Assembly (NCBI GenBank): GCA_022710935.1
Contig: JAKLFY010000003.1
Span: 62,001-126,000 of the forward strand
Origin: Verrucomicrobiota bacterium
GTDB taxonomy: Bacteria > Verrucomicrobiota > Verrucomicrobiia > Limisphaerales > J093
DNA length: 64,000 nucleotides
Direction: 5' to 3'
In this document: one piece after another, positions 33,075 to 58,110 of the stretch
Layout of the letters: each line of letters begins with the position of its first letter
How positions within the stretch are numbered: the stretch's first letter is position 1
Made by a program: the position numbers and the translations under genes
Notes under the pieces: generated by a model
Seen by the model: the letters and a program-made list of their open reading frames with translations, nothing else
What the model was told of the DNA's origin: nothing
Databases searched by the model: none

Positions 33075-33118
33075 CCCGCATGTTTCACACGCTTCGCGAG
33101 GAACCGTAACCGGGCTAG
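33071..33118. repeat. CTAGCCCG/CGGGCTAG hairpin at the 3' end of the PHP gene
   Basis: Perfect 8-bp inverted arms at 33071-33078 and 33111-33118. The left arm contains the TAG stop of the upstream gene. The sequence CTAGCCCGCATGTTTCACAC recurs as CTAGCCCGTATGTTTAACAC at 13861-13880, again including a stop codon, and partially at 30353-30365. It may act as a terminator-like structure between convergent genes. Confidence 0.65.
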
Positions 33119-33120
33119 TC

Positions 33121-33234
33121 GGCAAAACCGCGCCCAGATAGGGATCCAGGGGCATCTTGCCGGTCCTGAAAGCGCTTTGTCATGAGAAGAGTGTGTTTCA
33201 TTTCTCTGACTCACGGACCCGGCGCGGTTTTGCT
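33121..33234. repeat. ~114-bp palindromic element, copy 1
   Basis: Terminal inverted repeats GCAAAACCGCGCC (33122-33134) and GGCGCGGTTTTGC (33221-33233), 13 bp perfect. The internal sequence matches the element at 48585-48700. Read on the minus strand from ATG 33183 it encodes a 22-residue peptide ([20 protein letters not shown] plus two residues) ending at the TAG of the neighbouring hairpin. It lies between the 3' ends of two convergent genes and could fold as a bidirectional terminator. No transposase is nearby. Confidence 0.85.
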
Positions 33235-33238
33235 TTTG

Positions 33239-36200
33239 TCAGTACTCGACCCTCACCCGAACGGGCCCGGCGGATGGGGCCATGCGGACAACCTCGATCG
33301 TGTTGTCGAAGGTCGCCTGGGCCCCCGCATCGAGTTGCACGGATTTGATCGGACGACCTTCCGGATGACGCAACCGCAGCACGATGGCTTTCGGCGCGGA
33401 CCACGTCGGCGGATCGATCATGGCATCGATATGCCCGCGACCGACCGACGAGGCGATCTGGTAACTCACTGGCCCGAAGAAAGTCGGCGCATTCGCCACG
33501 CGGATCTTCATCCCGTCCTCGAGCCAGTTGTCGGTCACCAGGGGCGCCAGCCAGAGTTCATCGCCCCGCTCGGTCAGGAGCATTGTCCGCGATTGGTGGA
33601 GGAAGTAACCCGTCTCGTGGGTCTTGTTATAGCACCAATTCGAGAAATGCTCGTAGATCGACAGGCAGGACCCGTCGATGAGCGATGCCAACGTGTTGAA
33701 GTAGCTGCGCACAAACGGCTTGACGTCGTCGCGCAACGCGCAGATCTCGGCGTTGCGCGTATAGTACGGCTGAACCTTGGCAAAGCCGCCCATGTCGAAC
33801 CAGTCGGCACGGTTGCGATCGGCCGGATACCCGCCCCAGCCGCTTTCGAGGAATTGCACGTCCTCCATGTGGTCCATGATCCAGTCGACCTCGGGTGCAT
33901 CGGGCCGCATGGCGCCCAACGGGACCATGTGATGCGGCCCGAGATCGACGTCGTAGGCCCAACTGCGGTTGCCATCCTGCCCGGGGTAGAAATCGGCCAT
34001 CGGCCCGGGTGTGTAAACCGAGGCCGGGTAGTAGGGCACCCAGGTTCCATCTTGCAGCGGCACGACAGGCGCCAAGGCCTGCGCCTGCCCGTACGCACGC
34101 CGCACGTCCCTGCCCAGTTGCGCGGCGGCGGCCAGGGCGGCATCGGCGTCGGGATGCCCGATCAACCCGAGGGCGTGCCCCATCGCGTCGAGACCGGCAT
34201 GGAAGTAGCTGTTGGCGTAAAAGTAATAGGCATACGCATTCCAATCCGCCTGGACACCGGGCGGCATCAAGCCGAACTCGGGCACCGGACGCCCATCGGG
34301 CTTGAGCCTGCGCGTCTTGGCAAGCTGAGCCGTGACCCAGCGACACATCCCAGCCGGCTTGTCGGCCACCGCCCGGAACCAGGCGTCGTCTCTGGCAAGG
34401 CGCATGTATTCGCCCAAGGCCCAGAGATGCCAACCGCTCCCCATGACGGTATAGCCCATGGTCATGAAGCCCTCCGGTTTGTAGTGGCTGAACGAGTATT
34501 CGAAGGCCCGTTGGGCATAATCGAAGTGGCCCCAGTACTGCATGCCGCGGATGGGGGAGTTGCCTTCGCTGTCGATCGCCACCAGGTAGCGATCCGACGC
34601 GATCCAGGGCTCGACCTGTCTGCCCTGCTGTTCGTTGCGGGCGGCCAAGAGCACATGGACCTGGTTAGCGCGGATGACGTCGGCCAGCCAGGCGTCGGGC
34701 AATTCGATCTGCATGGCCGGGGCCATGATCGCCTCCCAGTAAGCCTTGAAGCGGCCGAATAACTCGTCACCACCGCCAAGCTCGGCCTCCCCTTCGGATT
34801 TCGCTTTCCACGCCGGCAGGTAGAAACAGCAGCGGGCGCTGCCGTTGGCCGGCAACCGACCGCTGATCGAGAAATGGCCGTTGTCCGACCGGCCCGTGCC
34901 GGACGGAAACCCGGTGCTGTCAAACACCCCCACGAGCCGGCCATCGGCGATGATGGTTGTCCGCTGGCCGGTCGTTTTGCAGACCGGCGGCCCGCCACGG
35001 CCGGGATCCGTCGCAAGGACAAATGACGCGCTTGCGTCGGCCGGCTCGGGTTTATGGTTCGTCATCGTCAGTTCGAGAACACCGCACGGTTTCGCATTGA
35101 GCCAGCGCGGAGCCGTCGGGAGGTTCTCTCCCTCGAGCGGCGCGACATATGTCCGCTGGCGATACTCGATGCCCCCGATGTTCACAACCGTCACGGGGGC
35201 AGGAAGCCATCCGCCCTGGAGATGCCGCTTGAACCGCGGAGTCGGGGTGAACAACTCGGTGAGATAGACCGGCTCAGCGGCGTCCGCGCGGATCAGACGC
35301 GCATCGCACCAGTTGCCCGCGTCGAACCCGATGCCGTCGTTTGCATCGGCCAATCGGAGCGCGAGCATGCGGGCCCCGATCAACGGAACATTGACCCGCT
35401 TGGGATCATCCCTCTCGCGCATCACGCCGCTGTCGAACCGCTTCTGGCCGTCCACCAACACCTGAAAGACCACGCTGCCCGGGGCTTTGCCCCCCTGCCA
35501 TTGCAGACCGACCTCGGCCTCGAACCCGGCATAGCCTTCGCTGACATCGATCACGATGTCGCCCGAGGCGTGATGCCCGAGACCCCTGGCAAAGTCCTTC
35601 TCATTGATCCGCAGCGCCAGAGCCGCGGCCGGATCGGCATGCGCCGCCTTGTCCAGTCCCAGCAGGCCCCACGCCTGCGATTGGCCCAGCACGCGCCGAT
35701 CCCCAAACATCGGCGTCAGGGTGTAATTGGGCCGATGCCCCTTCTCGTCGCTGTCGAAGTTCTCGAAAAAGAAAACCGTTCCGTTCGCCTCGGTCACGAA
35801 CTCGGCGTTGTCACACGCCAGCGAAAGCATCATCCGCCCCGCATCGAGTCGCGGATCGCAGTGCGTGACCTTCATTGCCCGCTCGCGAGTCTGGTCCGGC
35901 ATCGCCCGCACCCGCTCGAGGACAGTCCGTTTGTCCGCAATCTGCCGTTTATACTCGTCGAGGCTGGGCGCCGCCGGGAACCGGCTGACAAACAGACCCG
36001 CGTGTGGCACGTAGACCGGACCGCGCTCGAGGACGTCGTCGATGGCCACCGCAAAAGCGCCCCCGGGCACGCGAAAACGGATCATGGTGCGATCGGCGCG
36101 GACCTGACGAAGCGCCTCGCACGCGACATGACGCACGGCCAACTGCAGAGGCGATCCCATATCCCAGGATCGCTGCGTGCCCTCGATCCCGATGATCGAG

Positions 36201-36865
36201 CCGTTGTAGACCTCGATCTCGGCCTTTTGCCCCGGCCTGGCAGGATCGCTCTGAATCAAGAGGTCTGAAGCCGTTATGGTCGAGCTGGTGATCGCCTCGA
36301 AACCCGTAACCGCGACCGATTGACCGCCGGCAGGAACGATCCAGCGGACTTTCCAGTACAGCGCGCCGGCCTTGGCGGGCGTGAATGCCCAAATGCTGCC
36401 GTTCGCATCCATTGCACCGTCGATGGATACCCATCGGCCCTGCCAGACGGTCTCGCCCTGCCAGAATTGAATCCTGACCGGACGCGCGGGCGCCGTCTTC
36501 AATCGGATCTGCAGCCGCGTGAGCGGTCTGGCCTCGATCCACTCGAGTCCGATGCAGGCCTCGCCGTTGGCCGCGGGCTCGACGCTGTAATCCCCCTCGA
36601 GACCAGGCATCAGATCCTTCGCCAGGAAAAGATCGTCAGCCGCGATTTCCTCGAGACGATTGGCCCGGACGCCGACGTCACGCCGCGGATCCCAGGTGCA
36701 CACCCGGGCAAAGGGAGCGGCGTCGAAGAAGCGGCCGTCACCCTCGGCGGGTCGAGCCGACCGGCTCAACCCCAAAACCAGCGCCAACGCCAAAACCATG
36801 ATGAAAGGACCGCGCCCCGAAAGGGAACCAAGAGCTTCCTGCCGGTTCTGACGGAGTTGTGCCAT
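33239..36865 (-). CDS. Very large exported NPCBM and six-hairpin glycosidase-like protein
   Basis: About 1208 residues. A signal peptide (FIMVLALALVLGLSRSARPA) is followed by a ~330-residue beta-rich region, an NPCBM carbohydrate-binding module (INEKDFARGLGHHASGDIVI ... FQVLVDGQKRFDSGV), and a large alpha/alpha six-hairpin domain (WLADVIRANQVHVLLAARNE onward) ending in a beta sandwich. The catalytic domain resembles GH95/rhamnosidase-like families; the exact family is unsure. Start is uncertain: ATG 36865 lies inside a dispersed repeat whose translation forms the first ~20 residues, while ATG 36799 begins directly at the signal peptide. It probably degrades an extracellular polysaccharide. 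Confidence 0.8.
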   Translation of the reverse strand: MAQLRQNRQEALGSLSGRGPFIMVLALALVLGLSRSARPAEGDGRFFDAAPFARVCTWDPRRDVGVRANRLEEIAADDLFLAKDLMPGLEGDYSVEPAANGEACIGLEWIEARPLTRLQIRLKTAPARPVRIQFWQGETVWQGRWVSIDGAMDANGSIWAFTPAKAGALYWKVRWIVPAGGQSVAVTGFEAITSSTITASDLLIQSDPARPGQKAEIEVYNGSIIGIEGTQRSWDMGSPLQLAVRHVACEALRQVRADRTMIRFRVPGGAFAVAIDDVLERGPVYVPHAGLFVSRFPAAPSLDEYKRQIADKRTVLERVRAMPDQTRERAMKVTHCDPRLDAGRMMLSLACDNAEFVTEANGTVFFFENFDSDEKGHRPNYTLTPMFGDRRVLGQSQAWGLLGLDKAAHADPAAALALRINEKDFARGLGHHASGDIVIDVSEGYAGFEAEVGLQWQGGKAPGSVVFQVLVDGQKRFDSGVMRERDDPKRVNVPLIGARMLALRLADANDGIGFDAGNWCDARLIRADAAEPVYLTELFTPTPRFKRHLQGGWLPAPVTVVNIGGIEYRQRTYVAPLEGENLPTAPRWLNAKPCGVLELTMTNHKPEPADASASFVLATDPGRGGPPVCKTTGQRTTIIADGRLVGVFDSTGFPSGTGRSDNGHFSISGRLPANGSARCCFYLPAWKAKSEGEAELGGGDELFGRFKAYWEAIMAPAMQIELPDAWLADVIRANQVHVLLAARNEQQGRQVEPWIASDRYLVAIDSEGNSPIRGMQYWGHFDYAQRAFEYSFSHYKPEGFMTMGYTVMGSGWHLWALGEYMRLARDDAWFRAVADKPAGMCRWVTAQLAKTRRLKPDGRPVPEFGLMPPGVQADWNAYAYYFYANSYFHAGLDAMGHALGLIGHPDADAALAAAAQLGRDVRRAYGQAQALAPVVPLQDGTWVPYYPASVYTPGPMADFYPGQDGNRSWAYDVDLGPHHMVPLGAMRPDAPEVDWIMDHMEDVQFLESGWGGYPADRNRADWFDMGGFAKVQPYYTRNAEICALRDDVKPFVRSYFNTLASLIDGSCLSIYEHFSNWCYNKTHETGYFLHQSRTMLLTERGDELWLAPLVTDNWLEDGMKIRVANAPTFFGPVSYQIASSVGRGHIDAMIDPPTWSAPKAIVLRLRHPEGRPIKSVQLDAGAQATFDNTIEVVRMAPSAGPVRVRVEY

Positions 36866-36888
36866 GGGAACAGTCTGTTGCATTTGTG
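36808..36888. repeat. Palindromic element, copy 3 (internal part only)
   Basis: About 81 bp aligned with the middle of the 114-116-bp elements near 33.1 and 48.6 kb (shared CTGCCGGT and GCCATGGGAACAGT), but without the outer inverted repeats. On the minus strand it encodes MAQLRQNRQEALGSLSGRG, homologous to the peptide in the other copies, and forms the first codons of the large glycosidase frame. Confidence 0.7.
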
Positions 36889-36972
36889 GTGAATCCCTGC
36901 CCCGCAAGTGCCCGACCTGGTGATCATCGCCCAGTCTCTGCGGGCGAATCCAGCTCGAATGGTGTCGGCTAA

Positions 36973-37353
36973 TCAGGCCAGATACGCGTCGAGCACGCGC
37001 CTCAGCTCCTTCATCTCGACCGGCTTGGCCACGAAAGGCAGCCCGCCCACGAGGCCGCCGCAAGCAGACACCTCCGCCTTCTTGATGGCCGCGGTGAGGA
37101 AGATGATCGGAACATGCCGCAGGGCAGGGTCGGCCAGCAGTTGGGCCGCCACGTCTCCGCCGGGGAGATCGGGCATCATGACATCGAGCAGAATCAGCTC
37201 TGGCTGGAACCGCCGCGCCTCGGCCAAAGCGGTCAACGGGGCGTTCACCGTCTGAACCTCGTACCCGTCGCTCTGCTCGAGGTTGAGTTTCAACAACCGC
37301 GTGAAGCTGACCTCATCGTCCACAATCAGCACTCGTTTCTTGGCTCCCTTCAT
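36973..37353 (-). CDS. Single-domain response regulator
   Basis: 126-residue CheY-like receiver. RVLIVDDEVSF supplies the acidic Mg2+ pocket, LILLDVMMPD the phospho-acceptor Asp, FLTAA the switch Thr and VAKPVEM the conserved Lys. There is no output domain, so it must act by protein contact. Its ATG overlaps the stop of the upstream PAS histidine kinase by 4 nt, giving a clear cognate pair. Confidence 0.9.
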   Translation of the reverse strand: MKGAKKRVLIVDDEVSFTRLLKLNLEQSDGYEVQTVNAPLTALAEARRFQPELILLDVMMPDLPGGDVAAQLLADPALRHVPIIFLTAAIKKAEVSACGGLVGGLPFVAKPVEMKELRRVLDAYLA

Positions 37354-38666
37354 CGGGCCTCCAGAATCGCTGCCTTCCGAGACGCCGGGCGAATGGCAGT
37401 GCGTTGACGTTTGGGGGCGTCCGGAACCGGCATAACGGACGTTGTCGGAGATCGGGCGCGAAACCGCATCGCCACACGAACACCGCCCTCAGCCCCGTTC
37501 GCGAGGTCGATCGTGGCCTCATGCAAATCGATGATCTTCCGGACAACCGCCAGCCCCAGCCCGGTGCCGACACCGACCGGTTTGGTCGAGAAGAACGGAT
37601 CGAAAACCTTCGGGAGCAGTTCTCGGGGAATGCCCGGACCGTTGTCGCGCACCTCGACTGCGACGAACTGGTGTTCGCCGCCCTCGCCGACCGTCGATGC
37701 CCCGTTGCTCCGGACCGCATCGCGCGCCCTTTCGACGCGTGTCGAGACGGTCAGCCGCCCCCCTTGAGCCATGGCTTGGAGGGAATTGAGAAACAGGTTG
37801 ATCAACACCTGCTCGATCTTGACGGTATCGATCAGCACCGGCGGCAAGGACGGCGCCAGATCTCGCACCACTTGCACGCGCGCCGCCTGGGCCTCGTAGT
37901 GAACCAGCGTCAAAGACCGCTCGACCACCGCATTCATGTCCGCCTCCCGTCGATCCAATCGAGCAGCTACGGAAAGCTCGAGGATCTCGCGAATGATCGC
38001 GTTGGCGCGCCGGGCGGCTTCACGAATGTCGCCCACGACACCAGCGAGATCGCCCGACTCCGGCGGAAGATTGGCGTCGAGATAGTCGACCCCCATCAGA
38101 ATGATCTGAAGCGGATTCTTGACCTCATGCGCCACCCCGGCGGCAAGCGTCGCCACCGACTCGAATCGCGCGGCTTGTATCAATCCAAGCTGGGCCTGTT
38201 CGAGTTGGTCACGCGATGCCAGAAGTTGTCTCATGGTCGACTTCAAGGCCTTCTGGCTCCGCGCCAGCTCAGCGCAGGCCCGGCGTAAGTCGGCCTCCGC
38301 CCGCTTGCGCTCCGTGACGTCCGCAATCACACCGTCGATGTAAAGCTCGCCCCCCTTGTCCCGCTTGAGCGTGGCGTTGACCTCGGCCAGTAGCCGCCGC
38401 CCCTTCAAGGTCTTCAGTTCCAGCTCGTGCTCTCGCACGAATCCGTGCCTGAGAATCTTTTCGCAAAAGACCTTCCGCTGTCCGGGATCGACGTAGAGAT
38501 CGTTCACGCGACACCCCAGGAGTTGCTCCCTCGATTCGGCTTCGAACATGGCCACAAGCTCAGGGTTGGCCTCAAGAAAACGCCCCTCGTCCCCTGGCGT
38601 GTTCCGATAGACTCCCACCGGAAGATGGTCCATCAACTCGGCATATCGCTTTTCAACTTCAGTCAT
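37350..38666 (-). CDS. PAS-domain histidine kinase
   Basis: 438 residues, no membrane segment, therefore cytosolic. A PAS domain (~1-120, with DVTERKRAEADL at its end) is followed by a coiled coil and a NtrB/AtoS-like kinase core: H-box LAAGVAHEVKNPLQIILMGV, N-box NLFLNSLQAM, G1 VRDNGPGIP, and VGVGTGLGLAVVRKII. It phosphorylates the overlapping downstream single-domain regulator. The C-terminal ~25 residues are basic and lie outside the fold. Signal unknown. Confidence 0.9.
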   Translation of the reverse strand: MTEVEKRYAELMDHLPVGVYRNTPGDEGRFLEANPELVAMFEAESREQLLGCRVNDLYVDPGQRKVFCEKILRHGFVREHELELKTLKGRRLLAEVNATLKRDKGGELYIDGVIADVTERKRAEADLRRACAELARSQKALKSTMRQLLASRDQLEQAQLGLIQAARFESVATLAAGVAHEVKNPLQIILMGVDYLDANLPPESGDLAGVVGDIREAARRANAIIREILELSVAARLDRREADMNAVVERSLTLVHYEAQAARVQVVRDLAPSLPPVLIDTVKIEQVLINLFLNSLQAMAQGGRLTVSTRVERARDAVRSNGASTVGEGGEHQFVAVEVRDNGPGIPRELLPKVFDPFFSTKPVGVGTGLGLAVVRKIIDLHEATIDLANGAEGGVRVAMRFRARSPTTSVMPVPDAPKRQRTAIRPASRKAAILEAR

Positions 38667-39210
38667 CGGCTGCCCCAGAGCGACAGGGGAATCCCGCCGC
38701 GTGGAAAACTCTCACGCCGGTCGTCACCCGAGAGCACGGCGGCGCGGCGTGAGGACGTACGGTTCATGGCAAGCGAAGTTCCCGTTTCAGAACAGAGCAC
38801 TGAGCAAGAGCCTCAAGAGACGGTCAACCCCCGCACGCTCCCGCTTCGCGGGACGTCGCAACCTCGCCACTCGCGTGCGAAGAGGCGAAGCCTATGGAGT
38901 GCGCGCGCTTCAGCGCCGCTTTGCATGTCGGGTTCATGGATAGCGTGTGAGGGAAACCATGCCAGCACAGATACATTTTCCTACTTATCACTATTGTGAT
39001 TTCTGAAGTCAAGGTGGAGCGGCTGGCGGTCTTTGTCAAGGGGTCGGGCACTCTTTGTCGCTGCCCTCCTGTTTGCGAGGATTCTAAAGAGCGAAGGGCG
39101 GAAGAGAGGGGGACTGTTCGGAAGTTGAGAATCTCAAACGGGCTGAGGGCGCCTCGCTTGATCCTTCGCTCGACAAACGGGTCGGTGGATGCGATGAACA
39201 CCAGACAGCC
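38667..39210. other. Intergenic region with REP-like sequence
   Basis: About 540 bp without a supportable gene. Around 38898-38925 the sequence AGTGCGCGCGCTTCAGCGCC contains a short GCGCT/AGCGC hairpin and resembles dispersed palindromic repeats common in this phylum. The stretch 38970-39010 is AT-richer and could hold a promoter for the downstream Tat-signal gene, but no clear boxes are seen. Frames here are short and Arg/Ser-rich. Confidence 0.4.
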
Positions 39211-39798
39211 ATGAACGCCTTGGATCACAGCATGACAACAGACCAGATCAGTCGACGCGATTTCCTGGTGTCCGTGGGCATCGGAACAGCCGGCGCGGCC
39301 TGCGCCGGCGAATCGCCGCGACCCGCGGGTCCGCCGCCTCTGCAGGGCGCCATGGTCATCGATCCTCGACCCAAGTTCGAACTTTCGCCCTACCTTTACA
39401 TGCAGTTCATGGAGCCGCTGGGCGTCACGGACAGTTCGGTGGACGCTGCCTGGGACTTCGGGCGGGACGTCTGGCGTGAGGACGTGATCGAGATCACGCA
39501 GGAGCTGGCGCCGACGCTTCTGCGCTGGGGCGGATGCTTCTGCTCGTACTACCGCTGGCGAGAAGGGGTGGGGCCGCAGAACCGGCGCCGACCGATGCTC
39601 AACCAACTCTGGGGCGGCATCTACAACAACCAGGTCGGCACACACGAGTTCGTGGACTTCTGTCGGCGGGTTGGAGCCGACCCGCTGTTCGTGGTGAACT
39701 TCGAGGCGGACGGCCGAAAGTACTGGGCGGTGTCACCGAAGGGTGATGTGCGCTCGGGCACGGCCCTCGAGGCGGGGGAGTGGGTGCGTGCGTTCTGA
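39211..39798 (+). pseudogene. Alpha-L-arabinofuranosidase-like protein, N-terminal fragment
   Basis: 195 codons: a Tat signal (SRRDFLVSVGIGTAGAACAG), then a GH51-like N-terminus (FELSPYLYMQFMEPLGVTDS, LRWGGCFCSYYRWREGVGP, NQVGTHEFVDFCRRVGADPL). After GEWV the frame is lost and ends at TGA 39798. The overlapping downstream frame resumes with the C-terminal part of the same family, so ~300 residues including the catalytic acids were deleted, with a frameshift at about 39779-39790. The product cannot be an active glycosidase. Confidence 0.75.
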
Positions 39799-41147
39799 AT
39801 GTGCACGAGCGAAACGGCGACGTGCTCAAGATCGCCACGCTGGCGGACTTCTGCGGCACCCGCTGGCAGAACAATGCCGTCATGATTCCCGTGCCTGGCG
39901 GCAAATCGTTCCTCATGCCGGTCGGCATGGTCATGAGGCTCTACCGCAGGCACACCGGAACCCACGCGGTGGACATCTCGGGCGTTCCGGATGGATTGGA
40001 TGCGACCGCGAGCTGCAAGGGCGACCGCGTCTTCCTGCACGTGGTCAACACCCGCCGGGACCGGTCGATCGAGGCTACGTTCCAGATCCGCGGACGGACC
40101 ATCGCGTCGGGCCGCGTCTTTTGGCACGCACTCGAACCGGAGTTCGAGATCCTCGAGTACTCGCCCGAACAGGCAGCGAAAATCAAATCCTCGAAACAGC
40201 AGTTCGCCTACTTGGATCCGGGCGAGACGTTCGCCTTCCAGCTTCACGACGGAACCGAGCGGCAGATCCGCCTGGTGTCCGTTGCCGAGGAAAAGGATCC
40301 TGTCATCGGCCTCATTCGCCGGGCCCAAATCGGGCTTGAAATCGACGGACAGCCCCTCTCACTCGTCTGCGCGCCGTATGTGATGCCGACCGAGATCGCG
40401 GGTCTGCGGATCCAGGCCGATACGACATCCGGCTGGGTGACGATGCCGAAGCGGGTGCAGTGTTCCGTCTGGGACGCGGCGGATCCGATCGTGGACACCC
40501 CATCGTTCAGCTTTCCGCTGCCCGGGTACCGTCTCTTTTCTCATGGCCTGCAGGCCTACAACGAGCCTGTGCACCTGGGCGACCGGGACGGCGATCCCGC
40601 CGGCCAGCGCTTCTATCACAACTACGGCGTCGATCTGGCCGGGTACGAAGGACGCCAGAAAGTCGTCAGCGCAATCGACGGCGTCGTGGTCCAGTCCGAC
40701 CCCCGCGAAGGCAATCTGTGCATCCGGGACGATCGCGGACTGATCCTCCATTACGGACACCTCGAGTCGATCCTGACTGGAATCCGATCCGGCACTCGAG
40801 TCCGACGGGGCGAATGGGTCGGGATGCTCGGGCGCCGGGGCGCCTCGGGCAATTTCTCACATCTGCATGTCGGGGTCTACCTGTCGGAGGCGGCCCTGGC
40901 CGATGACCACCCGTGCCGCAACCTGAATTTGTATCCGTGGCTGGTCGCCGCGTACCAGGCCAAACGCGGCAGCGAACTTCATGCCATGGCAGGACCTCAT
41001 CAGACGACGGTCGTGGGCGATCCGGTGTCGCTGGACGGACGGAACTCGATTCCCGGCCGGGCCGACATCGCGTCTTATCGGTGGGACTTCGACGATGGAA
41101 CGAGCATGGCCGGACCGGTCGCGGAGAAGGCATTCGAGAATATCGTC
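39780..41147 (+). pseudogene. Arabinofuranosidase C-terminus joined to M23 peptidase-like and PKD domains, cut by a MITE
   Basis: It begins with the GH51-like C-terminal block (VHERNGDVLKIATLADFCGT...) and a beta domain. An M23/LytM-like peptidase fold follows, with HNYGVDLAG, LILHYGHLES and SHLHVGVY supplying the expected His/Asp/HxH zinc ligands, then the start of a PKD domain (DIASYRWDFDDGTSMAGPV). The frame then runs straight into a 316-bp inverted-repeat element. The M23 part looks intact, but the gene lacks a proper start and end. Whether the joining of glycosidase and peptidase is ancestral or a deletion artefact is unclear. Confidence 0.65.
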
Positions 41148-41463
41148 CTTAGGGTCTGTGCAAAAACTACTTCCGGTTTTGGCGGGAGCGCCACCGGGTC
41201 AGATGCGAGGCCCGAGGGAGGGAGTGTATCCGCAGAGATACTCGACCGACCGAGGAACGAAGCAGATGGCCCGGTGCCGCCCCGCCCCGCAGGGCTGGGG
41301 GGGCTTTGGCTCGCTGGTCCCGCCGTCGCGGGATTGCTCCTCAGTCACAGAGGTCAAGGCTATGCTCCTTCGTCGCGCGGCTCGGCTGAGCTCGCCGAAG
41401 TCCTCGCCAGCGAGCCAAATCCCCTCCAGCAAAATCGGAATTAATTCTTGCACAGACCCTAAG
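41148..41463. mobile_element. 316-bp MITE-like element
   Basis: Perfect 16-bp terminal inverted repeats CTTAGGGTCTGTGCAA (41148-41163) and TTGCACAGACCCTAAG (41448-41463), extended imperfectly inward to ~35 bp. There is no room for a transposase. It interrupts the PKD domain of the upstream gene. A partial second copy lies at 54100-54202. The TTAG/CTAA ends could include a short target duplication, so the exact borders are uncertain by a few bases. Confidence 0.85.
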
Positions 41464-41557
41464 ACCCCAAACCGAGCTCGTTTCGTGCACATCTGCCTCC
41501 GCTTCTCAGATGCCTGGGTGACACGACCAAGACCTGATGTACCGATCCCGGCAGAAG

Positions 41558-42508
41558 TCAGCGGTCCGCCGGACGTGGCAGGGGTTGGTCGAGGACATGG
41601 CGGGCGATGGCATCCACCGTGTCCAACCACAAGCCGTTCGCAGGGTCGGCGGCGAAGGTGCAGATTTGCTCCAGCGTATTCGTCAGCACCGTCTGGGAAC
41701 CGCCACCGCCGATTTCGTGGCCGGCCAGCACCAGCCAGCGTCCCCGTTCCAAGGTGCGTTCGAGGAGCGGGCGTATCTGCGCAAACGACTTGCCGTCCAA
41801 TTCGACGCCCAACAGTTGCGCCGGATCGCCGTGGACCGGGTCGTTTGCCTCCTCGGCCAGCCATAACCGGCCGGTCCGGAACATCCGCGCCACCACCGGC
41901 ACATAGCTGCGGACGCCTTCACCCCGCCCGACAAAGGTCTGGCCGCACGGATAGGCGAAACTCGTCGGCTTCACGCCCAGGCGCGACACGATGAAGGCCG
42001 AGGCCAACTCAAGTTCCTGCTGCATGCGGTCGAGGGTGAAATCCTCCAGGGCGTTGGTGCGTGCCCAGACGAAGTTGCCCGTGCAGGGGTGAGTCAGGCT
42101 ATGGTTGCCGATTTCGTGCCCCTGCGCGACGGCCTGCTTCCACTGGGGCAACCGTTCCTCCAACGCCCGCGGCGAGATGTAGAAGGTCGCCCGCACCCCG
42201 TGACGGTCGAACAGCGGCAGGCCCACACTCACCTGGCTGAGCCGGGCATCGTCGAAGGTCAGACTGAGCGCGGCTCGCTTGCCTTCAGGCCAGGAAAACG
42301 AACGGGCGGGAACCTCCAACGAAGGGCTTGCGTACTGGGCGCGGGCGGGCAGCGTCCCCCAGGCCGCGCAGGCGACAACCAGCGCCGCCAGTGTGCCGCC
42401 CCGCGCCCTACCCCGACGTCCGACCTCCGGCCAGAACCTCCGCCACGGTGCCGCGAGAGCCCCGGCACGGGGCAAAACAACTCCGCTGTCCTTAGTCGTG
42501 CGCCTCAT
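41558..42508 (-). CDS. Exported polysaccharide deacetylase
   Basis: About 316 residues. Signal sequence (GTLAALVVACAAWGTLPARA) then a NodB-homology domain: motif 1 LSLTFDDARLS (catalytic and metal Asp), motif 2 GNHSLTHP (metal His pair), motif 3 FAYPCGQTF, and late VLAGHEIGGG. Such enzymes remove acetyl groups from chitin, peptidoglycan or other sugars outside the cytoplasm. ATG 42508 (MRRTTKDSG) is chosen; the frame runs to 42574 with no clear ribosome site. The upstream region is gene-free. Confidence 0.85.
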   Translation of the reverse strand: MRRTTKDSGVVLPRAGALAAPWRRFWPEVGRRGRARGGTLAALVVACAAWGTLPARAQYASPSLEVPARSFSWPEGKRAALSLTFDDARLSQVSVGLPLFDRHGVRATFYISPRALEERLPQWKQAVAQGHEIGNHSLTHPCTGNFVWARTNALEDFTLDRMQQELELASAFIVSRLGVKPTSFAYPCGQTFVGRGEGVRSYVPVVARMFRTGRLWLAEEANDPVHGDPAQLLGVELDGKSFAQIRPLLERTLERGRWLVLAGHEIGGGGSQTVLTNTLEQICTFAADPANGLWLDTVDAIARHVLDQPLPRPADR

Positions 42509-42997
42509 GGAATCAGCGTGGCACCACGCCATCGACACGCAATCCAAATTGCGCGCGGACGCGCCAGACCTCACTGCCTTTCAAAGGTCAGCGGCATACC
42601 GCCTTCGGCGCGAGGCTTCACCCAGAGGCGTTTCCCCTGACTCGGATGTCAGCCGATGCCAATTCCTGCTCGCGTTTGCCGCGCGCCGGCTGCAACCGCA
42701 CGCTCACCCGAGCCGCCCGTGCCGGGAGATCGAGTGTGTTCTGGCGAAGGGACTCAACAGCTCGCTCTCGAACACGAATGGGTGCACGGACGGAACATCA
42801 CTCATGACACTCTCCTTCCCCCAGGCGCGCTGAGCCGGCCAGCGCTCAGGCGCCGCGGCGGCGCCGCTTAACAAGGCGTCGACTGTCCATTGTCATGACC
42901 AAAGCCCATCGCAAACAAACTGGTGACATGCCTCATTGGTCTGAGGCGGAGCTTCGCGCCCTATTGCCAGTTCGCGATGCCGGCCCCGAGGCCGTGA
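42509..42997. other. Intergenic region
   Basis: About 490 bp between two minus-strand genes. Short frames exist on both strands, including a 33-codon minus-strand frame near 42700-42806 (MSDVPSVHPFVFESELLSPF...), but none resembles a family I know. No strong repeat is seen. Confidence 0.4.
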
Positions 42998-44653
42998 TCA
43001 TGGTGGTAACAAGTTTGTCACCCGCTCGGCCAATCGCGACACGATTTCTCCGACGAGTTTCTCGCCCAGGTCCCGGGATGCCGTGGTTCGCGGGTCCTGA
43101 CCGTGAATCGCGTAGAGCGGATGCGCGGGATTGTGAGTCGACGCCTCGTTCCGCGGCGTCTCCGGCAGCGTGACTCGATTCGGATCGCGTCCGGCCGTCA
43201 GTTGCCCCAGATGGACCCAATCTGGATTCAGCGCCAGGGCGATGCTGGTTTCGTACTTGGCGGCGTGATCGCCCCCGTAGGGATCGCCCGGCTGTGCCGT
43301 GGTGATCTCCGGCTCGGTCAATCCGATGAAGCGCGCCTTCGGATGCCGCTTCTGGGCCTCCGCGGCCAGGCGATGGACCATGTCCACCTGCTCCTTTGGA
43401 TAATGCCCGGTCAGCAGCACCACGACCTGGAAGCCTTGGCGGGCCAGGTGGTCCAGGGTTGCCTCGATCAGCGGCGCGATCTGGGCCTCCGGCAACATCA
43501 CCGTCCACTTGTAGCCGACATGGCCGCCGCCGGTGCCATAGAAAAACGCGGGCAGCACCGTGCCCCCGGTGCGTTCGGCCACCCGTTCGCACAAGGCGTG
43601 GGCTTTGATGCCGTCGAAGCAGACCGGCAGATGCCAGCCGTGATGCTCGAAGGTGCCGACCGGCACAAACGCGATCGGCGCAGTGTCCAACACCCTTTCC
43701 AACTCGTCCGGCGACATCTCCTCCATACGCCCGTGCGGTTTCGCGATCCCCGAGAACTTGGCCGGCCGCGCCCACTTCTGCCTCGACGCTAACGTCTGGC
43801 GATCCGTCTTCAGGCGCTCTTCGAATTCTTCCAGCGTTCCCTTGGCGAGGTAGAGGCGGCTGACGGTGGTGCTGGCCTCCCCCGGACCGATATCGCCGAA
43901 GCTGGGCGCGGCGTGCAGGCAGCAGCGGTCGAGGTTGTCGAAGAGAAAGGCGGTCTGCATCGCCGCGGCCGCCATGTAGGACCCCGCCGGCTCGGAGAGC
44001 GTCACGATCCATGAACCGTCAGTGCGATCCGGGCTCGTGGCGCCGAAGCCGCGCACAAACACCGATTCCGTTCCGGCGGCGACTTGCTCCGGCAGATAGA
44101 AGCCCACCGTGGGCATGTGGCCTTCGACGCGCGCTGTCTCCGACATGCGGAAGGGCCGGCCCTGTTTGCTCATATAGGTCCGCTCGAGTCTCCAGTCCTT
44201 GAATGCCGGGGCGTCGATGGGATTGAGGCAGTTGAAAGCGAAGACCTCGCGCCAGAGAAACTCGGTGTGGTTGCGTATGGTCATGTCCACGTCCACGAAA
44301 TCCCCGGACGGAACCAACCGCAGCGAGTAAGAGATGCGTCCCCCGGGACCCCAGGAACAGGAGACCACGCCCTGGGCGTCCGGACCTTGCCACTCGACGC
44401 GGGCTTCGGGAAAGTTGACGAGGAGGGCCTCGCGACAACCGATCGTCTCCGGGATGCCCAGGGCGAACACCGGGTTGCCCAGCGCGGGCACACGCGCCCG
44501 CACCTGCATGGCGCCCGCTTCCGGCTCGAGGACGATGCGCCCGGTCGCGCCCCCCTCCGCCCCGGCCGCAAACCGGACACCAGCCATCGTTAAGCACCCG
44601 ACGAGGAGCCATGCCTTCGGACGTTGATCAGTGACCATAAGAGAGAATTTCAC
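42998..44653 (-). CDS. Exported protein with creatininase-like C-terminal domain
   Basis: 551 residues. Signal peptide (~10-32), a ~280-residue N-terminal beta-rich domain I do not recognise, and a C-terminal creatininase-family amidohydrolase domain (~330-551). Metal-ligand motifs are seen in GTFEHHGWHLPVCFDGIKA, LTGHYPKEQ and GGDHAAKYETS. Creatininase-family enzymes open cyclic amides or formamides using Zn/Mn. Exported creatininase fused to a large N-terminal domain is unusual; the N-terminal part may bind a carbohydrate substrate (inference). Alternative start ATG 44638. Confidence 0.75.
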   Translation of the reverse strand: MKFSLMVTDQRPKAWLLVGCLTMAGVRFAAGAEGGATGRIVLEPEAGAMQVRARVPALGNPVFALGIPETIGCREALLVNFPEARVEWQGPDAQGVVSCSWGPGGRISYSLRLVPSGDFVDVDMTIRNHTEFLWREVFAFNCLNPIDAPAFKDWRLERTYMSKQGRPFRMSETARVEGHMPTVGFYLPEQVAAGTESVFVRGFGATSPDRTDGSWIVTLSEPAGSYMAAAAMQTAFLFDNLDRCCLHAAPSFGDIGPGEASTTVSRLYLAKGTLEEFEERLKTDRQTLASRQKWARPAKFSGIAKPHGRMEEMSPDELERVLDTAPIAFVPVGTFEHHGWHLPVCFDGIKAHALCERVAERTGGTVLPAFFYGTGGGHVGYKWTVMLPEAQIAPLIEATLDHLARQGFQVVVLLTGHYPKEQVDMVHRLAAEAQKRHPKARFIGLTEPEITTAQPGDPYGGDHAAKYETSIALALNPDWVHLGQLTAGRDPNRVTLPETPRNEASTHNPAHPLYAIHGQDPRTTASRDLGEKLVGEIVSRLAERVTNLLPP

Positions 44654-44938
44654 GGTTTCTTTGACGGGGAAAGCAGTTGTTGTCGCAGCAAGGAGACGAT
44701 GGCGGCGACATCGGCCTCCGGGTCTTTGCCAACCTCAGGACCGATCCGCCAGGTTTGCCGGGGTGACTGTTCAGGCGTGGAACCGCGCGAATGAGCGCGA
44801 ATCGAGCGGCGGTCTCGTGCTGTGCGCTCGCGGCTCCAGCATTGCATTCGCGTGCATCCGCGGTTGACCTGAATAGTCACGCGATACCAAGCCAAGCCAA
44901 TGTTCTCGTGTGACCCCATTTTCGCGGCTGACTCGTTT

Positions 44939-46183
44939 TCAGAGGCAGAACCACGGCAGCGCGGTGACCTGGTCGTGGATCCGCTGCGGGTGGGAACACC
45001 GGCAAATGACGAAACCGCGCTCCGCCTGCTTGGGGTGCTCGCTGAGAAACGTCAGGACATGCCGCGCATCCTGAACCGTCGGGCGCTCGCTCCACTTCAC
45101 TTCAATCGGCATGAGCGCGCCGCAATGCTCGACGATGTAATCAACCTCCATCCCGTCGCGAGTCCGCAGGTAATGCAAACGGGCCTCGCCAAGGTACTGC
45201 AATCGCTTCCATAACTCGATCCCCACCCATTGCTCGAAAAACGCGCCTGGATTGACCTGCACGATTTCCCGCGACGCCCGCAACCCTGCCGCCGCGTGTC
45301 TCACGCCCAAATCGAAGAACAGGAACTTCGGCGTCGAAAGCAGGTTCTTGCGCTTGCTCCCCGAATACACCGGCACGCGCAGTCCGATGAACATGTCCTC
45401 CAACAACTGGTAGTGCGACTTGACGGTCGGCTGAGAAAGACCTGTCTCCTGGGCGATTCCGGCGTAGTTGAGGATTTGCCCCGACTCCGCCGCGGCCAAT
45501 TCCAGGAACCGCACAAACGCCCCCCAGTCCTTCACCAGCGCCTCCCGGCGGATTTCCTCCTCCAGGTGCACCAACGCAAAGCCGGTGAGCATCCGCGCCC
45601 GATCTGTTTCCTCCGCGGCCACCACGCCTGGCAACGCACCGTAGGCCAGCCGCTCTTCCAAGCCCCACGCCGGGAAAGGACTCGTCGGCGCCGTCCCCGC
45701 CTTCCATTCCAGCGGTACAGGCGACACCGCATGCTCGATCCGCTTCGGTTCCGGCGGATGCTCGATCATCGTCAACGGATAAAGGCGATGGTAGAAGCAC
45801 CGGCCCGGAAGCAGGTTCGCTCCGGTCTTCCGCAGCTTCCGCGCCGAACTGCCGCACAGCACGAACCGCCAGCGCCGCTTGTCGTTGTCGTAGAGATGCT
45901 GCACCGCGTCGAACACGGTCGGCACCGCCTGGGCTTCATCCACGAACACAAATCGCCCTTCCGGGGCCGCAGGCTGATCGCGGCACAGTCTGACGAGCAG
46001 TCCAGGATCGGCCAGATGACGCGACCGCTCCTCTGGGATGGCCAGGTCGACCCGCAGCGTCTCGGGGGGCAACAGCGCATTGAGCAACGTCGTCTTGCCG
46101 GTCTGACGCGCCCCGAAAACCAGTTGGACATACGGTCGCTCCAGACTCGCCTTTAACTCGGCTGCATACCATCGGTCGAACAT
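44939..46183 (-). CDS. AAA ATPase with DUF4143 domain
   Basis: 414 residues. Walker A GARQTGKTT (residues 24-32), Walker B FVFVDEAQAV, sensor-like LCGSSARKL, then the DUF4143 winged-helix/nuclease-like C-terminus (GLSQPTVKSHYQLLEDMFIG ... EVDYIVEHCGALMPIEVKWS, which has the E-V-D...E-x-K pattern of a PD-(D/E)XK nuclease fold). The family is widespread and often found near mobile DNA; its role is poorly known. An AT-rich 100-bp leader (46184-46282) precedes it and contains an inverted repeat that could be its operator. Confidence 0.9.
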   Translation of the reverse strand: MFDRWYAAELKASLERPYVQLVFGARQTGKTTLLNALLPPETLRVDLAIPEERSRHLADPGLLVRLCRDQPAAPEGRFVFVDEAQAVPTVFDAVQHLYDNDKRRWRFVLCGSSARKLRKTGANLLPGRCFYHRLYPLTMIEHPPEPKRIEHAVSPVPLEWKAGTAPTSPFPAWGLEERLAYGALPGVVAAEETDRARMLTGFALVHLEEEIRREALVKDWGAFVRFLELAAAESGQILNYAGIAQETGLSQPTVKSHYQLLEDMFIGLRVPVYSGSKRKNLLSTPKFLFFDLGVRHAAAGLRASREIVQVNPGAFFEQWVGIELWKRLQYLGEARLHYLRTRDGMEVDYIVEHCGALMPIEVKWSERPTVQDARHVLTFLSEHPKQAERGFVICRCSHPQRIHDQVTALPWFCL

Positions 46184-46240
46184 GATCTCCAGTCTACCAG
46201 CATTGCCTCAAAATGCACTTTAGTTTTGTAGCAATTATCT

Positions 46241-46263
46241 AAACCGTTATTCACAAACGGTTT
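46241..46263. promoter_or_regulatory. Inverted repeat in the AT-rich leader of the DUF4143 gene
   Basis: AAACCGTT (46241-46248) and AACGGTTT (46256-46263) are perfect 8-bp arms with a 7-nt spacer. They sit in the most AT-rich stretch of the area, about 60 bp upstream of the DUF4143 start and ~20 bp after the end of a DUF4380 remnant. It could be an operator for the former or a weak terminator for the latter. Confidence 0.45.
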
Positions 46264-46282
46264 TCTTGGCGTTTATCCGACT

Positions 46283-46723
46283 CTATACCAGCGCCTTCCA
46301 ACACTGAAGATCCGCAGCCCCCCCGCCTGTCAGACCCGCAATCTCCCAAATCAGCAGATCGGCGAGCCGGGAGCGGCGAGTGGCGAGCGGCGCCTTGCTA
46401 ACCGCACCAACTCTCCACAACCCCGGTGCCTCGCCCATCCCCACCTGGTACATATACTGGACCCGCATCAACTGACGCCGCGGGTCGGGTCGGAAGGACG
46501 GATTATCCGGCGCACCAAAGATCACGGCATAGCCATTGGTGAAGTGACTCCGCGGGCTCAGGGGACACCATGACTTGAGCCAAGTGTTTGGCGTGGCGGG
46601 GTCGCTTCCTGCTCCATCGAGTTGCGTGTGCGTCCAGATGCCCCAGCGGCGCGGCTTCACGTCGATGTTCCGCATCGTCGCCTCGAATCGCACCCGGGTG
46701 CTGCCTGGGAAGAGGCGGACCAC
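46283..46723 (-). pseudogene. DUF4380-like remnant
   Basis: The frame starts inside a conserved block (LFPGSTRVRFEATMRNIDVK, RRWGIWTHTQ, PLSPRSHFTNGYAVIFG, LMRVQYMYQVGMG) that I recognise as part of DUF4380-like proteins of this phylum, then decays after WRVGAV. Both the N-terminal two thirds and the C-terminus are missing. The coding part begins right after the stop of the GH5-like gene, so the fragment probably fused there by deletion. Confidence 0.6.
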
Positions 46724-46732
46724 GCGCGAGAA

Positions 46733-47839
46733 CTAAAGGCCGCCCGTCGGGAGCTTTCCAGTGGTTACTTTGATGAACCGGACCTCGGTCGCACAGTAAG
46801 GCGTGCCATCCGCCCGGAAGATGTCGTGAAACCAGAGCTTCGGCTCAGGCGCGTCCTTGGGTGAACCCCACGGGTAATAGGTCTGCGTGCGGCCGGCGAC
46901 GAGGCCCCAGTTCCAGCAGCCGATCTGGTTGAGCTTCAGATAAGGCAGGTGCGTCTCGAAATGGCTGCCAAGGGTTCGCGCCATCCATTCCGTGCACCAG
47001 ACGGGCCGGCCATACTCGCGGCACACCCGGTGCTTCGCCTGCAGTCCCTCGAGCCCGTCGTAGCTATGGAACGAGACAACATCGGACAACTCCATCAGGC
47101 GCCGGGAGAGAGGCGACTGAAAGTCCGCCCATGCCCCCATGGTCAGCGGTTGCACTGGCTCCGCTGCCCGCGCCCAGGCGAACGCCGCCTCCGCCAGCGG
47201 GAGGCTCTGCTCCGCCAGACCTGAATTGCCCGGCTCGTTGTAAAGGTCCCAGGCCACCACCCGCTGGTCCTTGCCGAACGTGCCCACCAGGTCGCGCACG
47301 TACCGCTCGAGCCGCGGCCAGGCAGCGCGATTGGTCACCAGCGCGAGGGGGGGGCTGGACACCCATTGGCTGTTGTGAACCCCGGGAACCGGGTGAGGCT
47401 GCGGCTCGGCCACCGCCACGCGGCCGGCGAAGTTGCAGTCATCAAACAGAATCGGCAGGGTCAGAATGCCGTGCTTGTGCGCGATCTTGAGGAAGTGTCG
47501 GAAGTTCTCCTTGAGTCGTTCCGGCTCGGCCTCCCAGACCACAAAATTCAGAAACACGCGCACCGTGTTGAAGCCGAGCGCGCGCGCCCAACTCAGTTCC
47601 CGATCGATGGTCTTCGCGTCGAACGTTTCGTCCCGCCACATTTCGACATCGTTCACGGCGGTGCTGGGCAGGTAATTGCAGCCGACCAGCCACGGCTGGG
47701 AGTTGTACCATTCCCAGGCGCGGTGAGCCGACCAGCGCTCAGGCGCCGCCGCGGTGCCGGCGTGGGCGGTCGCGGCCGCCAAGGGCAGCAGCAGGTGGAA
47801 GATCACGCGGAACAGGGAGGCGCGCTGGAGAGGGTTCAT
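46733..47839 (-). CDS. Exported GH5-like glycoside hydrolase
   Basis: 368 residues. A signal peptide (FHLLLPLAAATAHAG) is followed by a TIM barrel of the cellulase/GH-A clan: GFNTVRVFLNFVVWE, ILTLPILFDD, VVAWDLYNEPGN with the acid/base Glu, SFHSYDG, and RPVWCTEWMAR with the nucleophile Glu. Both catalytic acids are present, so it is probably active on a plant or algal glycan. Substrate not determinable. It ends next to a DUF4380 remnant and is preceded by a broken prepilin gene. Confidence 0.82.
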   Translation of the reverse strand: MNPLQRASLFRVIFHLLLPLAAATAHAGTAAAPERWSAHRAWEWYNSQPWLVGCNYLPSTAVNDVEMWRDETFDAKTIDRELSWARALGFNTVRVFLNFVVWEAEPERLKENFRHFLKIAHKHGILTLPILFDDCNFAGRVAVAEPQPHPVPGVHNSQWVSSPPLALVTNRAAWPRLERYVRDLVGTFGKDQRVVAWDLYNEPGNSGLAEQSLPLAEAAFAWARAAEPVQPLTMGAWADFQSPLSRRLMELSDVVSFHSYDGLEGLQAKHRVCREYGRPVWCTEWMARTLGSHFETHLPYLKLNQIGCWNWGLVAGRTQTYYPWGSPKDAPEPKLWFHDIFRADGTPYCATEVRFIKVTTGKLPTGGL

Positions 47840-47995
47840 AGGATGGTTCGTGCGTGTTGGTGTTTCGTATTACAGGTCCCGGTGCAAGTCGAAAAGCGGT
47901 GTGCGCCCTGCTCACCGTGGGTCTCCTTGCGTGCAGGCGGGAATCGACCGTCGCATGGTCAAAGCCTTTCTAAGCCCATCCCACGGCGGCTTTCG

Positions 47996-48579
47996 TCACC
48001 TGGGGTCGGGCTGATCTTCCCGTCGCCGATCGACGGTCCACGTGACTTCGTTGTGAGGCTCGTTGTCGTTGTTCCACCGCGGGCGCCAGAGGTGGTTGAT
48101 CGCCGGGTTGACCAGGTCTTTGCGCCGCGGCGCCTCCGCATGCCCATCCCCAAACATCAGGGCGGTCCGTTTCGCGTGCCGGTTGGCGGGCCACTGGCCA
48201 CTGGTCTTCGTCCATGTTGGCTTCCCCGGTCGGGTCCTGCTGCATCCCGCGGCCCTCTCCCACCGCAATCATGTTCGCGGGCGCCACGACCGTGGTATCC
48301 TTCACCAGCCCTTCGTTAGTCGGTCACGTACATGGCCATCCCGATTCCAAGTTGCCGGAGATTGCCCACACACTGCGTCTGCTTGGCCTTTTCCTTGGCT
48401 TTGCCCAGCGCGGGCAGCAGCATGCCGGCGAGAATCGCGATAATCGCGATGACCACCAACAATTCAATCAGCGTAAAACCCGCCGGCCCTCGGCGGCGGA
48501 TCCTGAAGGTTTCGGTGCCGGATCGCCCTCCTTCCCCAACACTCGCGCGCGCAACCGGGGTGACAGCTTCCGGTCTCAT
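47996..48579 (-). pseudogene. Broken prepilin-like (DUF1559 / H-X9-DG) gene
   Basis: ATG 48579 opens a prepilin with [40 protein letters not shown] and [14 protein letters not shown], where it stops (TAG region at 48316). The C-terminal parts continue in other frames: KDTTVVAPANMIAVGEG (about 48240-48305), then AKRTALMFGDGHAEAPRRKD ... RPRWNNDNEPH to 47996. So one internal deletion/stop and at least one frameshift have destroyed it. The longer frame to ATG 48648 is translated from a palindromic repeat. Confidence 0.8.
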
Positions 48580-48584
48580 CGCGT

Positions 48585-48700
48585 TGGCAAAACCGCGCCC
48601 AGCAAGGGATCCAGGAGCATCCTGCCGGTCCTCAAGGCGTTTTGCCATGGGAACAGTGCGTTGCAGTTCTCCGTCTCTCTAACCTGGCGCGGTTTTGCCA
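48585..48700. repeat. 116-bp palindromic element, copy 2
   Basis: Perfect 15-bp terminal inverted repeats TGGCAAAACCGCGCC (48585-48599) and GGCGCGGTTTTGCCA (48686-48700). The interior matches copies near 33.1 and 36.8 kb. On the minus strand it encodes [20 protein letters not shown], in frame with the start of the broken prepilin gene. Confidence 0.88.
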
Positions 48701-48730
48701 CAGCCCCGATTTCCGCTACACCTTTCCATT

Positions 48731-48815
48731 GGTGAGAAATCCGGGCATAGACCCGGAAATCTCACCCGCGGACCGTCAGGAAGGCCGCGACCGCCCCACC
48801 GGTGAGATTTCCGGG
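48731..48815. repeat. Three-armed palindrome at the edge of an LRR remnant
   Basis: GGTGAGAAATCCGGG (48731-48745), CCCGGAAATCTCACC (48752-48766) and GGTGAGATTTCCGGG (48801-48815). The middle arm can pair with the left arm (one mismatch region, 6-nt loop) or perfectly with the right arm (34-nt loop). Coding sequence of the LRR remnant resumes right after the right arm. Confidence 0.8.
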
Positions 48816-52095: not shown

Positions 52096-52182
52096 CTGCA
52101 TCCACGTCGCTGGCGGCCTTGTTCCCGCCCTCCAGCAAGATGAAAAGGGAGCAATGGGGTCGCATCTAAATAGACACCGGCT

Positions 52183-54202: not shown

Positions 54203-54256
54203 CCGAAGCGGTCTCTGGCCGAGGAACAAGGATGCCAGACAGCTCTGCCCCTCAGC

Positions 54257-58039: not shown

Positions 58040-58110
58040 GTGGGCTTGGGGTCGGGTCTCTTGATTACATGCGACCCCATTGCGCCCCATCGGTCCGCGG
58101 CGGAGCCTCG

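Follow-up and report, generated by a model that had tools for sequence, protein, structure and literature searches.

A palindromic repeat of a Verrucomicrobiota genome as the probable central module of a mosaic of miniature elements, with a probably incidental open reading frame

The window analyzed here is a 64,000-nucleotide stretch of a Verrucomicrobiota bacterium genome (GenBank assembly GCA_022710935.1, contig JAKLFY010000003.1; G000:C183:62001-126000 in our labels), and our subject is a palindromic repeat, hereafter M, that occurs in it three times. The window's genome, G000, comprises 7.52 Mb in 259 contigs, and G001 is a congener. A first-pass annotation had described the three copies as one repeat family that encodes a conserved peptide on the minus strand and supplies N-termini to neighboring genes. 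In the window repeat comparison, positions 33118-33233 and 48583-48698 were 83% identical, and 36800-36915 was a third, weaker member at 61% identity without gaps. The genuinely matching part of this middle copy is 36809-36885, which is 83% identical to copy 3. Copy 1 (L011; 33122-33233, minus strand) and copy 3 (L001; 48587-48698, minus strand) each measure 112 bp between their terminal inverted repeats (TIRs) and have exact 13-bp ends, GCAAAACCGCGCC; the self-match at the ends of copy 3 is 15 bp, and copy 2 (L027; 36809-36885, minus strand) lacks intact ends. With up to two mismatches, GCAAAACCGCGCC matched 10 places in the window versus 4.98 expected, and the four exact matches are the four ends of copies 1 and 3. 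Together with matches throughout G000, these comparisons confirmed the proposed family and the TIRs of two of its copies, and repeating the translations returned the minus-strand peptides as first reported.

Copy 1 lies between two convergent genes. On one side it adjoins a palindrome of the R class described below (33071-33118; CTAGCCCGC...ACCGGGCTAG), which was identified from a palindrome scan, a gene call, and the PHP domain of the adjacent product. The PHP-domain gene, which ends at 33074, has the first TAG of this palindrome (33072-33074) as its stop codon, and the peptide open reading frame (ORF) of copy 1 terminates at the TAG of the palindrome after 22 codons. A few bases from the end of copy 1 is the stop codon (33239-33241, minus strand) of a gene for an NPCBM-domain protein (33239-36865, minus strand). 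According to sequence match and translation, truncated copy 2 is in frame with this gene. Our gene caller chose the start at 36799 (MVLALALVLG...), and the M-derived ATG at 36865 (MAQLRQNRQEALGSLSGRGPFIMVLALALVLG...) would be the alternative. From the ATG of copy 3, an ORF of 110 amino acids (48316-48648, minus strand) runs into a prepilin-like N-methylation motif; an alternative ATG lies at about 48582, just outside the copy. Two palindromes recognized by eye accompany copy 3: an R-like one on the usual L side (48703-48746), which our hidden Markov model (HMM) scan missed, and an L-like one of 72 nt (48748-48819; TAGACCCGGAAATCTCACC...GGTGAGATTTCCGGGTTAG). Near-identical copies of the stretch 48746-48819 occur at other places in G000 and in G001.

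Across G000, the repeat was found whole or partial at 40 loci (E-values from 4.3e-57 to 1.4e-3, several of them partial), which is a lower bound, as 40 of 108 first-look candidates were scored. Behind these loci are 73 match rows, the remaining rows being inverted arms of the same copies. The 13-base end, with A or G at base 5, had 60 + 60 occurrences versus 1 and 3 for a reversed control. A further 16 copies were taken from G001. Among 20 additional places with the end motif, 15 hold a near-full sibling element that has the same ends, a length of 108-113 bp, and a different interior. Eleven siblings are 112 bp long; over the 86-base interior, 10 of these are 45-53% identical to the main subfamily, M1, in the orientation chosen, and one, L191, is 50% identical to M1 in the opposite orientation, whereas the best of 2000 shuffles reached 42%. 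The siblings had been oriented with a heuristic, which turned out to be mistaken for L191 at least. All loci together yielded 75 distinct near-full superfamily elements, 62 of exactly 112 bp. The latter split into M1 (42), M2 (14), M3 (3), and others (3), with the last class including elements of genome G004 (L068) and of a third metagenome-assembled genome (MAG; L170), JAKQDD01 (Verrucomicrobiota bacterium isolate USDE_maxbin.037). Both of these genomes also hold elements with the same ends and other lengths, and by our reading none of the elements printed for them contains the M1 peptide. The ends of M are conserved, with diversities of 0.088 and 0.080 versus 0.285 for the interior. In G000 the palindromic elements come in roughly three sizes (46, 72, and 112 bp), and within each size the interiors form several subfamilies. 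The length of M stays at 112 bp although its interior changes.

Printed flanks at the 40 loci placed M within a larger arrangement. M is mostly preceded by a palindrome of ~72 bp (L; CTARCCCGC...GCGGGYTAG) and then followed by one of ~46 bp (R; GCCCGG...CCGGGCTAR). We scanned 61 near-full M elements with module HMMs, comprising 46 at L001-L064 and the 15 siblings. L was at the 5' side of the 46 in 35 cases and R at the 3' side in 30: 22 had both, 12 had L only, 8 had R only, 1 had L on both sides, and 3 had neither. All 46 were labelled M1 in that scan, and L039 afterwards proved to be M3. R was never assigned to the 5' side (0/46), although an R-like hairpin is visible by eye on that side of window copy 3; degenerate hairpins escape the scan, which scored copy 3 as having neither module. 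The siblings were more mixed, with L and R in 3, L only in 1, R only in 2, L on the 3' side only in 2, R at 5' with L at 3' in 1, and neither in 6. Apart from M, 60 palindromes fit the L pattern TARCCCGSA-N38-66-TSCGGGYTA versus none in the control, and the R pattern had 46 forward and 52 reverse matches (control: 4 and 1), where a perfect palindrome may count on both strands. Some of these L and R matches belong to M-bearing composites. Paired arms changed together in R (18 compensatory cells versus 5.3 when permuted; 0 of 1000 shuffles reached 18; 22 copies) and in L (11 versus 5.6; P = 0.003; 18 copies), where cells are copies rather than events.

The composite was not confined to G000, with a match of about 240 bp in G001, and its range appeared narrow. 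Among 40 genomes (its own and relatives), the composite part of the query matched only G000, G001, and G004, the other matches listed being to the neighboring gene. The same three were the matching genomes among 293 of the order, a search in which two candidates per genome were scored and weak matches may have escaped. A pattern spanning the M-R junction returned 10 stretches, 8 in MWFF01 (Verrucomicrobia bacterium ADurb.Bin006) and 2 in JAKQDD01, though this search may leave out records of the window's own genome.

The first-pass annotation had proposed that the peptide frame is kept despite nucleotide changes and that the repeat may carry a mobile translation-initiation module, that is, a conserved leader peptide donating start codons and N-termini. 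Several observations fit this proposal. The frame is common to the three window copies, and in a coding test set of 27 G000 and 16 G001 full-length copies, a stop interrupted it in only 1/27 and 3/16, respectively (a one-base gap also fell in the frame in 2 G001 copies). The other forward frames of G000 contained a stop in 6 (+1) and 7 (+2) copies, and among the 42 exact-length M1 copies the peptide frame was open in 39 versus 29 and 33 for the other two. Codon positions 1 and 2 varied slightly less than position 3 in G000 (diversities of 0.244, 0.227, and 0.301). However, comparing synonymous with nonsynonymous changes revealed no synonymous excess in either genome. Synonymous changes numbered 60/210 in G000 (61.9 expected; P = 0.66), 31/140 in G001 (35.6 expected; P = 0.86), and 98/374 across both (106.1 expected; P = 0.86). 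Counting each distinct change once gave 27/96 (25.8 expected; P = 0.42). Diversity by codon position in G001 was 0.249, 0.317, and 0.305. The ATG was present in 20/27 and 8/16 copies (NTG in 23 and 10), and thus lost in 15/43. In G001, frame +2 had fewer stops than the peptide frame (2 versus 3), and two reverse frames were about equally open, with a stop in 2 and 2 of the 27 G000 copies and in 2 and 0 of the 16 G001 copies. M2 had no ATG at the site (0/14), all three frames open (14, 14, and 13 of 14), and no codon-position signal (0.184, 0.175, and 0.201). The 15 siblings had no stops in the homologous frame and an ATG at the site in 1 (L184, orientation uncertain).

From these sequence comparisons we concluded that the peptide frame is very probably not maintained by selection. 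We attribute its rare disruption to the scarcity of insertions and deletions and to G+C-rich sequence, in which other frames are also often open. The frame is therefore kept in the sense that few copies carry a stop, but synonymous changes are at chance level and the start codon is often lost, leaving no support for a selected peptide. The alternative already raised by the first-pass annotation, that frame conservation is a by-product of copying, became the better reading given the lack of a coding signal. Random frame disruption and a lack of enrichment just upstream of or in frame with genes had been named as what would refute the proposal, and this refutation held only in part: no enrichment of in-frame runs into genes could be shown (4 of 56 loci, no chance expectation having been computed), but the frame was not randomly disrupted.

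When 56 loci were translated from the model ATG site, 30 met a stop within 39 codons, and several of the long open runs face a gene encoded on the opposite strand. At 4 of the 56 loci (L001, L009, L027, and L030), the frame runs from a start codon in M into a gene. Our script had flagged three in-frame genes, of which L038 was spurious; L001, L009, and L027 were added from printed translations. The start codon at L009 is GTG, and a GTG inside R also fits; the L030 gene has its own ATG just after R; and L054 has AGG at the start site. These 4 loci and the likeness among sibling translations, taken up below, count in favor of a translation-initiation module. Nevertheless, given the missing synonymous excess, the lost start codons, the equally open frames of M2 without any ATG, the early stops at 30 loci, and the preference of the L side for gene 3' ends, we regard such a module as very improbable.

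Individual genes may still have acquired sequence from the repeat. As first described, the frame of two of the three window copies does run on into a gene. The gene downstream of copy 2 had been called a large glycosidase, and at E ≤ 0.001 Pfam returned an NPCBM domain and no catalytic domain. The prepilin-like ORF at copy 3 does contain the N-methylation motif, but at a mere 110 amino acids it may be a fragment. The NPCBM gene is the best case of capture because MVLALALVLG alone lacks a charged n-region, and the M-derived part, GSLSGRGPFI, supplies one (by eye). A plausible reading is that the truncated M copy supplied the NPCBM-domain protein with the beginning of its signal peptide. In G001 the region at the NPCBM start reads MPCRLSVRGALGRGSFSMVLALALVLG, and its R hairpin is clear (0/2000 shuffles). 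A decayed M upstream of this orthologue is only suggestive (17/2000; P = 0.12 without the 3' end) and is not seen by the HMM. The protein in genome G005 has a leader of its own, unrelated to these. At L009, the frame passes from M through R into a protein with no Pfam match (L009:1551-3113); R there offers a GTG start (MPSSRHEIPGLGLALALCLATLA), the sequence of which resembles a signal peptide. An apolipoprotein N-acyltransferase gene (LNT_N match) lies at L086:9502-10626 on the minus strand, and its probable GTG start falls within an R-type hairpin next to an M2 element. At least one truncated M copy probably forms a gene start.

Gene contexts were obtained with a simple codon-score gene caller written for this analysis, whose starts are unreliable. 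In peptide orientation, the genes flanking the 56 M loci were ++ in 21, +- in 14, -+ in 9, -- in 10, and undetermined in 2, and no M was inside a called gene. On their L side, copies of the repeat tend to adjoin the 3' ends of genes. For 35 copies the nearest gene upstream is encoded on their own strand, and in 20 of these L starts at the stop codon of that gene. The genes in question end 68-75 nt before the M model start, a distance equal to the length of L. L033 (66 nt), a copy without its left half, was left out of the 20, and a few other partial copies remain among the 35. On the opposite side, the ends of 8/24 convergent genes fall 39-50 nt beyond M, which is roughly the length of R, although no R is visible at L022, one of the eight. 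A stop codon forms an end of 19 of the 26 strict palindromes; none of the 26 is inside a called gene, and 12 lie between convergent genes, compared to a background of 40/277 gene pairs.

This placement raises the possibility that L-M-R is a portable 3'-end cassette, selected as a transcribed 3' untranslated region of three hairpins that acts as a terminator, RNase barrier, or mRNA stabilizer. Such a cassette would also be mobile and combinatorially shuffled, would bring its own stop codon, and would insert at stop codons while duplicating the stop trinucleotide. The flush position at stop codons, the frequency between convergent genes, the joint change of R and L arms, and the near-fixed order and M length are all in line with it. 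However, stop codons accounted for 26/58 noncoding CTAG and 50/211 noncoding YTAR sites in a 422-kb sample, some of which may be element ends. Since so many of these sites are stop codons, enrichment beyond target choice is modest, and target choice together with loss from genes explains much of the pattern. Furthermore, when four loci were scanned with a terminator consensus, 2 terminator-like sites came up, roughly as many as in shuffled sequence, and 7 loci had no Rfam matches at gathering score. We therefore view a selected cassette as unlikely, although it is the least unlikely of the alternatives considered.

The ends of the elements suggest how they might have spread. Outer ends are mostly CTAR. 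The script could read both outer tetramers of nine composites, and the two agree in eight of them (CTAA/CTAA in four and CTAG/CTAG in four). The NPCBM gene and its G001 orthologue are similar up to the stop codon, beyond which G001 has no M, and the G004 orthologue of the PHP gene likewise has no element after its stop codon. The genome contains 7 matches to PF01609, 2 to PF13358, and 12 to PF01797 (Y1_Tnp), and we scanned these transposase loci, some of them cut at contig ends, with the module HMMs and end motifs. No matching ends turned up for a DDE_3 (PF13358) or DDE_Tnp_1 (PF01609) parent, and both were set aside; one end-like motif at a transposase locus was discounted as it lies inside the transposase coding sequence. 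A 1.4-kb pair of end motifs (L086:10609-11976) was dismissed as an autonomous element, the enclosed gene not being recognizable by eye as a transposase.

The 12 Y1_Tnp matches bear on whether the repeats could be repetitive extragenic palindromic (REP) elements that depend for their movement on REP-associated tyrosine transposases (RAYT). A further likeness is that palindromes at gene 3' ends supply TAG, as reported for GTAG REPs (PMC3733652). However, the repeats here are longer (46, 72, and 112 bp), and their ends are CTAR rather than GTAG or CGTC. None of the 12 Y1 genes is bordered by L, M, or R, with some loci cut at contig ends, and six (L155-L158, L160, and L161) are bordered, by eye, by a different, GGGTCA-like sequence, on which ground we set a RAYT/REP origin aside as improbable. 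An L-M copy lies about 0.9 kb from the Y1 gene at L160.

M shares several features with a miniature inverted-repeat transposable element (MITE): it has 13-bp TIRs, is short (112 bp), carries no transposase gene, is dispersed over 40 places, and varies in presence, being absent at the orthologous gene ends in G001 and G004. We consider it probable that the repeat represents the middle module in a mosaic built from miniature, palindromic, non-autonomous elements akin to MITE, REP, and BOX elements, and that the M1 peptide is incidental. This interpretation builds on what was observed directly, namely the modules, their order, the near-constant length of M, the association with stop codons, and the absence of a coding signal. 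The modules are nearly always ordered L (~72 bp), M (112 bp), and R (~46 bp), each having conserved inverted ends and several subfamilies. Elements would enter at (C)TAR sites, and because such sites are frequent at stop codons, copies would come to lie flush against gene 3' ends, where the first TAA or TAG of the element doubles as the gene's stop codon. Transposition may occur in trans by a transposase, with a duplication of 3 or 4 bp at the target, and modules may be shuffled by recombination or inserted separately. The peptide would then reflect a reading frame that happens to be open in one subfamily, M1, and copies that abut the 5' edge of a gene by chance could become part of its N-terminus.

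Several results weigh against this account. The arms of M covary little (2 cells, P = 0.06), and the share of paired cells in L is not significant (P = 0.07). Between-copy distances for L, M, and R are uncorrelated (Mantel r of -0.27, -0.03, and 0.11; 22 copies), implying that the composite has not spread simply as a single fixed block and that modules were shuffled or inserted separately. Target duplication is weak: the script read only copies with TAR ends, L020 disagrees, and by eye the tetramers of L017 and L008 differ while those of L003 agree. An empty site with both flanks was not obtained; L024 was tried and rejected because G001 homology stopped with no matching right flank. No transposase with these ends was found at the PF01609, PF13358, and PF01797 loci, some of which are cut at contig ends, and other families were not searched. 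Finally, the sibling translations keep a similar, SLxGRGF-like ending (R-x-x-x-R-x-[DE]...SLxGRGF). Deep protein conservation seems not to be its cause, given the lack of a codon-position signal in M2 and the equally open other frames. We judged the likeness to be a DNA-level echo, which, with three subfamilies compared, is the weakest of our rejections.

Each component of this picture has known counterparts, which we consulted in part. BOX elements of Streptococcus pneumoniae, as described in the portions of PMC3049150 seen, are likewise foldable, dispersed, MITE-like composites of ordered modules with a narrow species range, and in some copies an ORF extends past the boundary of the element. 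In contrast, we saw no variable number of middle modules, many copies here are flush with stop codons, and each module has several subfamilies; boxA-boxB-boxC and L-M-R were compared by architecture alone. The sections of PMC3733652 consulted describe GTAG/CGTC REPs and bacterial interspersed mosaic elements (BIMEs) as palindromes, in clustered units, that sit close to gene 3' ends and frequently separate convergent genes, with termini that supply TAG stop codons. A REP is a 20-40 bp palindrome tagged GTAG or CGTC, which differs from the CTAR ends and 46/72/112-bp classes here, as does the lack of a bordering repeat at the 12 Y1_Tnp loci. According to the same excerpts, O. terrae, also of the Verrucomicrobiota, is rich in GTAG repeats, a different kind. 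Rickettsia palindromic elements (RPEs) are also palindromic repeats with an open frame able to fuse to genes, and according to the part of PMC10969869 seen, almost half of the RPEs described at first are located within genes and represent possible fusions. Here, 0/26 strict palindromes were inside called genes and the frame carried no signal of selection. Like the RPEs, the enterobacterial RU-1/RU-2 repeats offer a precedent for a gene gaining sequence from a repeat (PMC2759123, consulted in part), but they have another host and another architecture.

The TAAC...GTTA ends of some copies prompted a comparison with the integron attC site. That site has RYYYAAC/GTTRRRY core sites and an integrase, and many copies here end in TAGC...GCTA, which does not fit. 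We found no description of this repeat family in the open-licence full-text literature, judged mostly by titles and abstracts. The component phenomena are therefore known, while the family and the L-M-R design look new.

The window contains other repeats. One is another inverted-repeat element at 41148-41463 and 54100-54204 with arms CTTAGGGTCTGTGCAAAA... and ...TTGCACAGACCCTAAG, in which a 105-nt stretch is 93% complementary to one at 41358-41462. Two inverted 23-mers of GGGGTCGCAT sequence (52147-52169 and 58065-58087; 91% complementary) resemble the border of the L161 Y1 transposase gene and recall the TIR-bordered Y1 transposases mentioned in the consulted part of PMC3733652. A 47-nt direct repeat with 91% identity occupies 42820-42866 and 47713-47759.

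These results illustrate how, within a single window, a dispersed palindromic repeat can mimic a conserved coding module, and by which test one can be told from the other. They also provide a clear example, in the Verrucomicrobiota, of modular palindromic elements with ends that double as stop codons. The candidate element-derived starts of the NPCBM protein and the apolipoprotein N-acyltransferase are concrete and testable cases in which genes may have captured repeat DNA.

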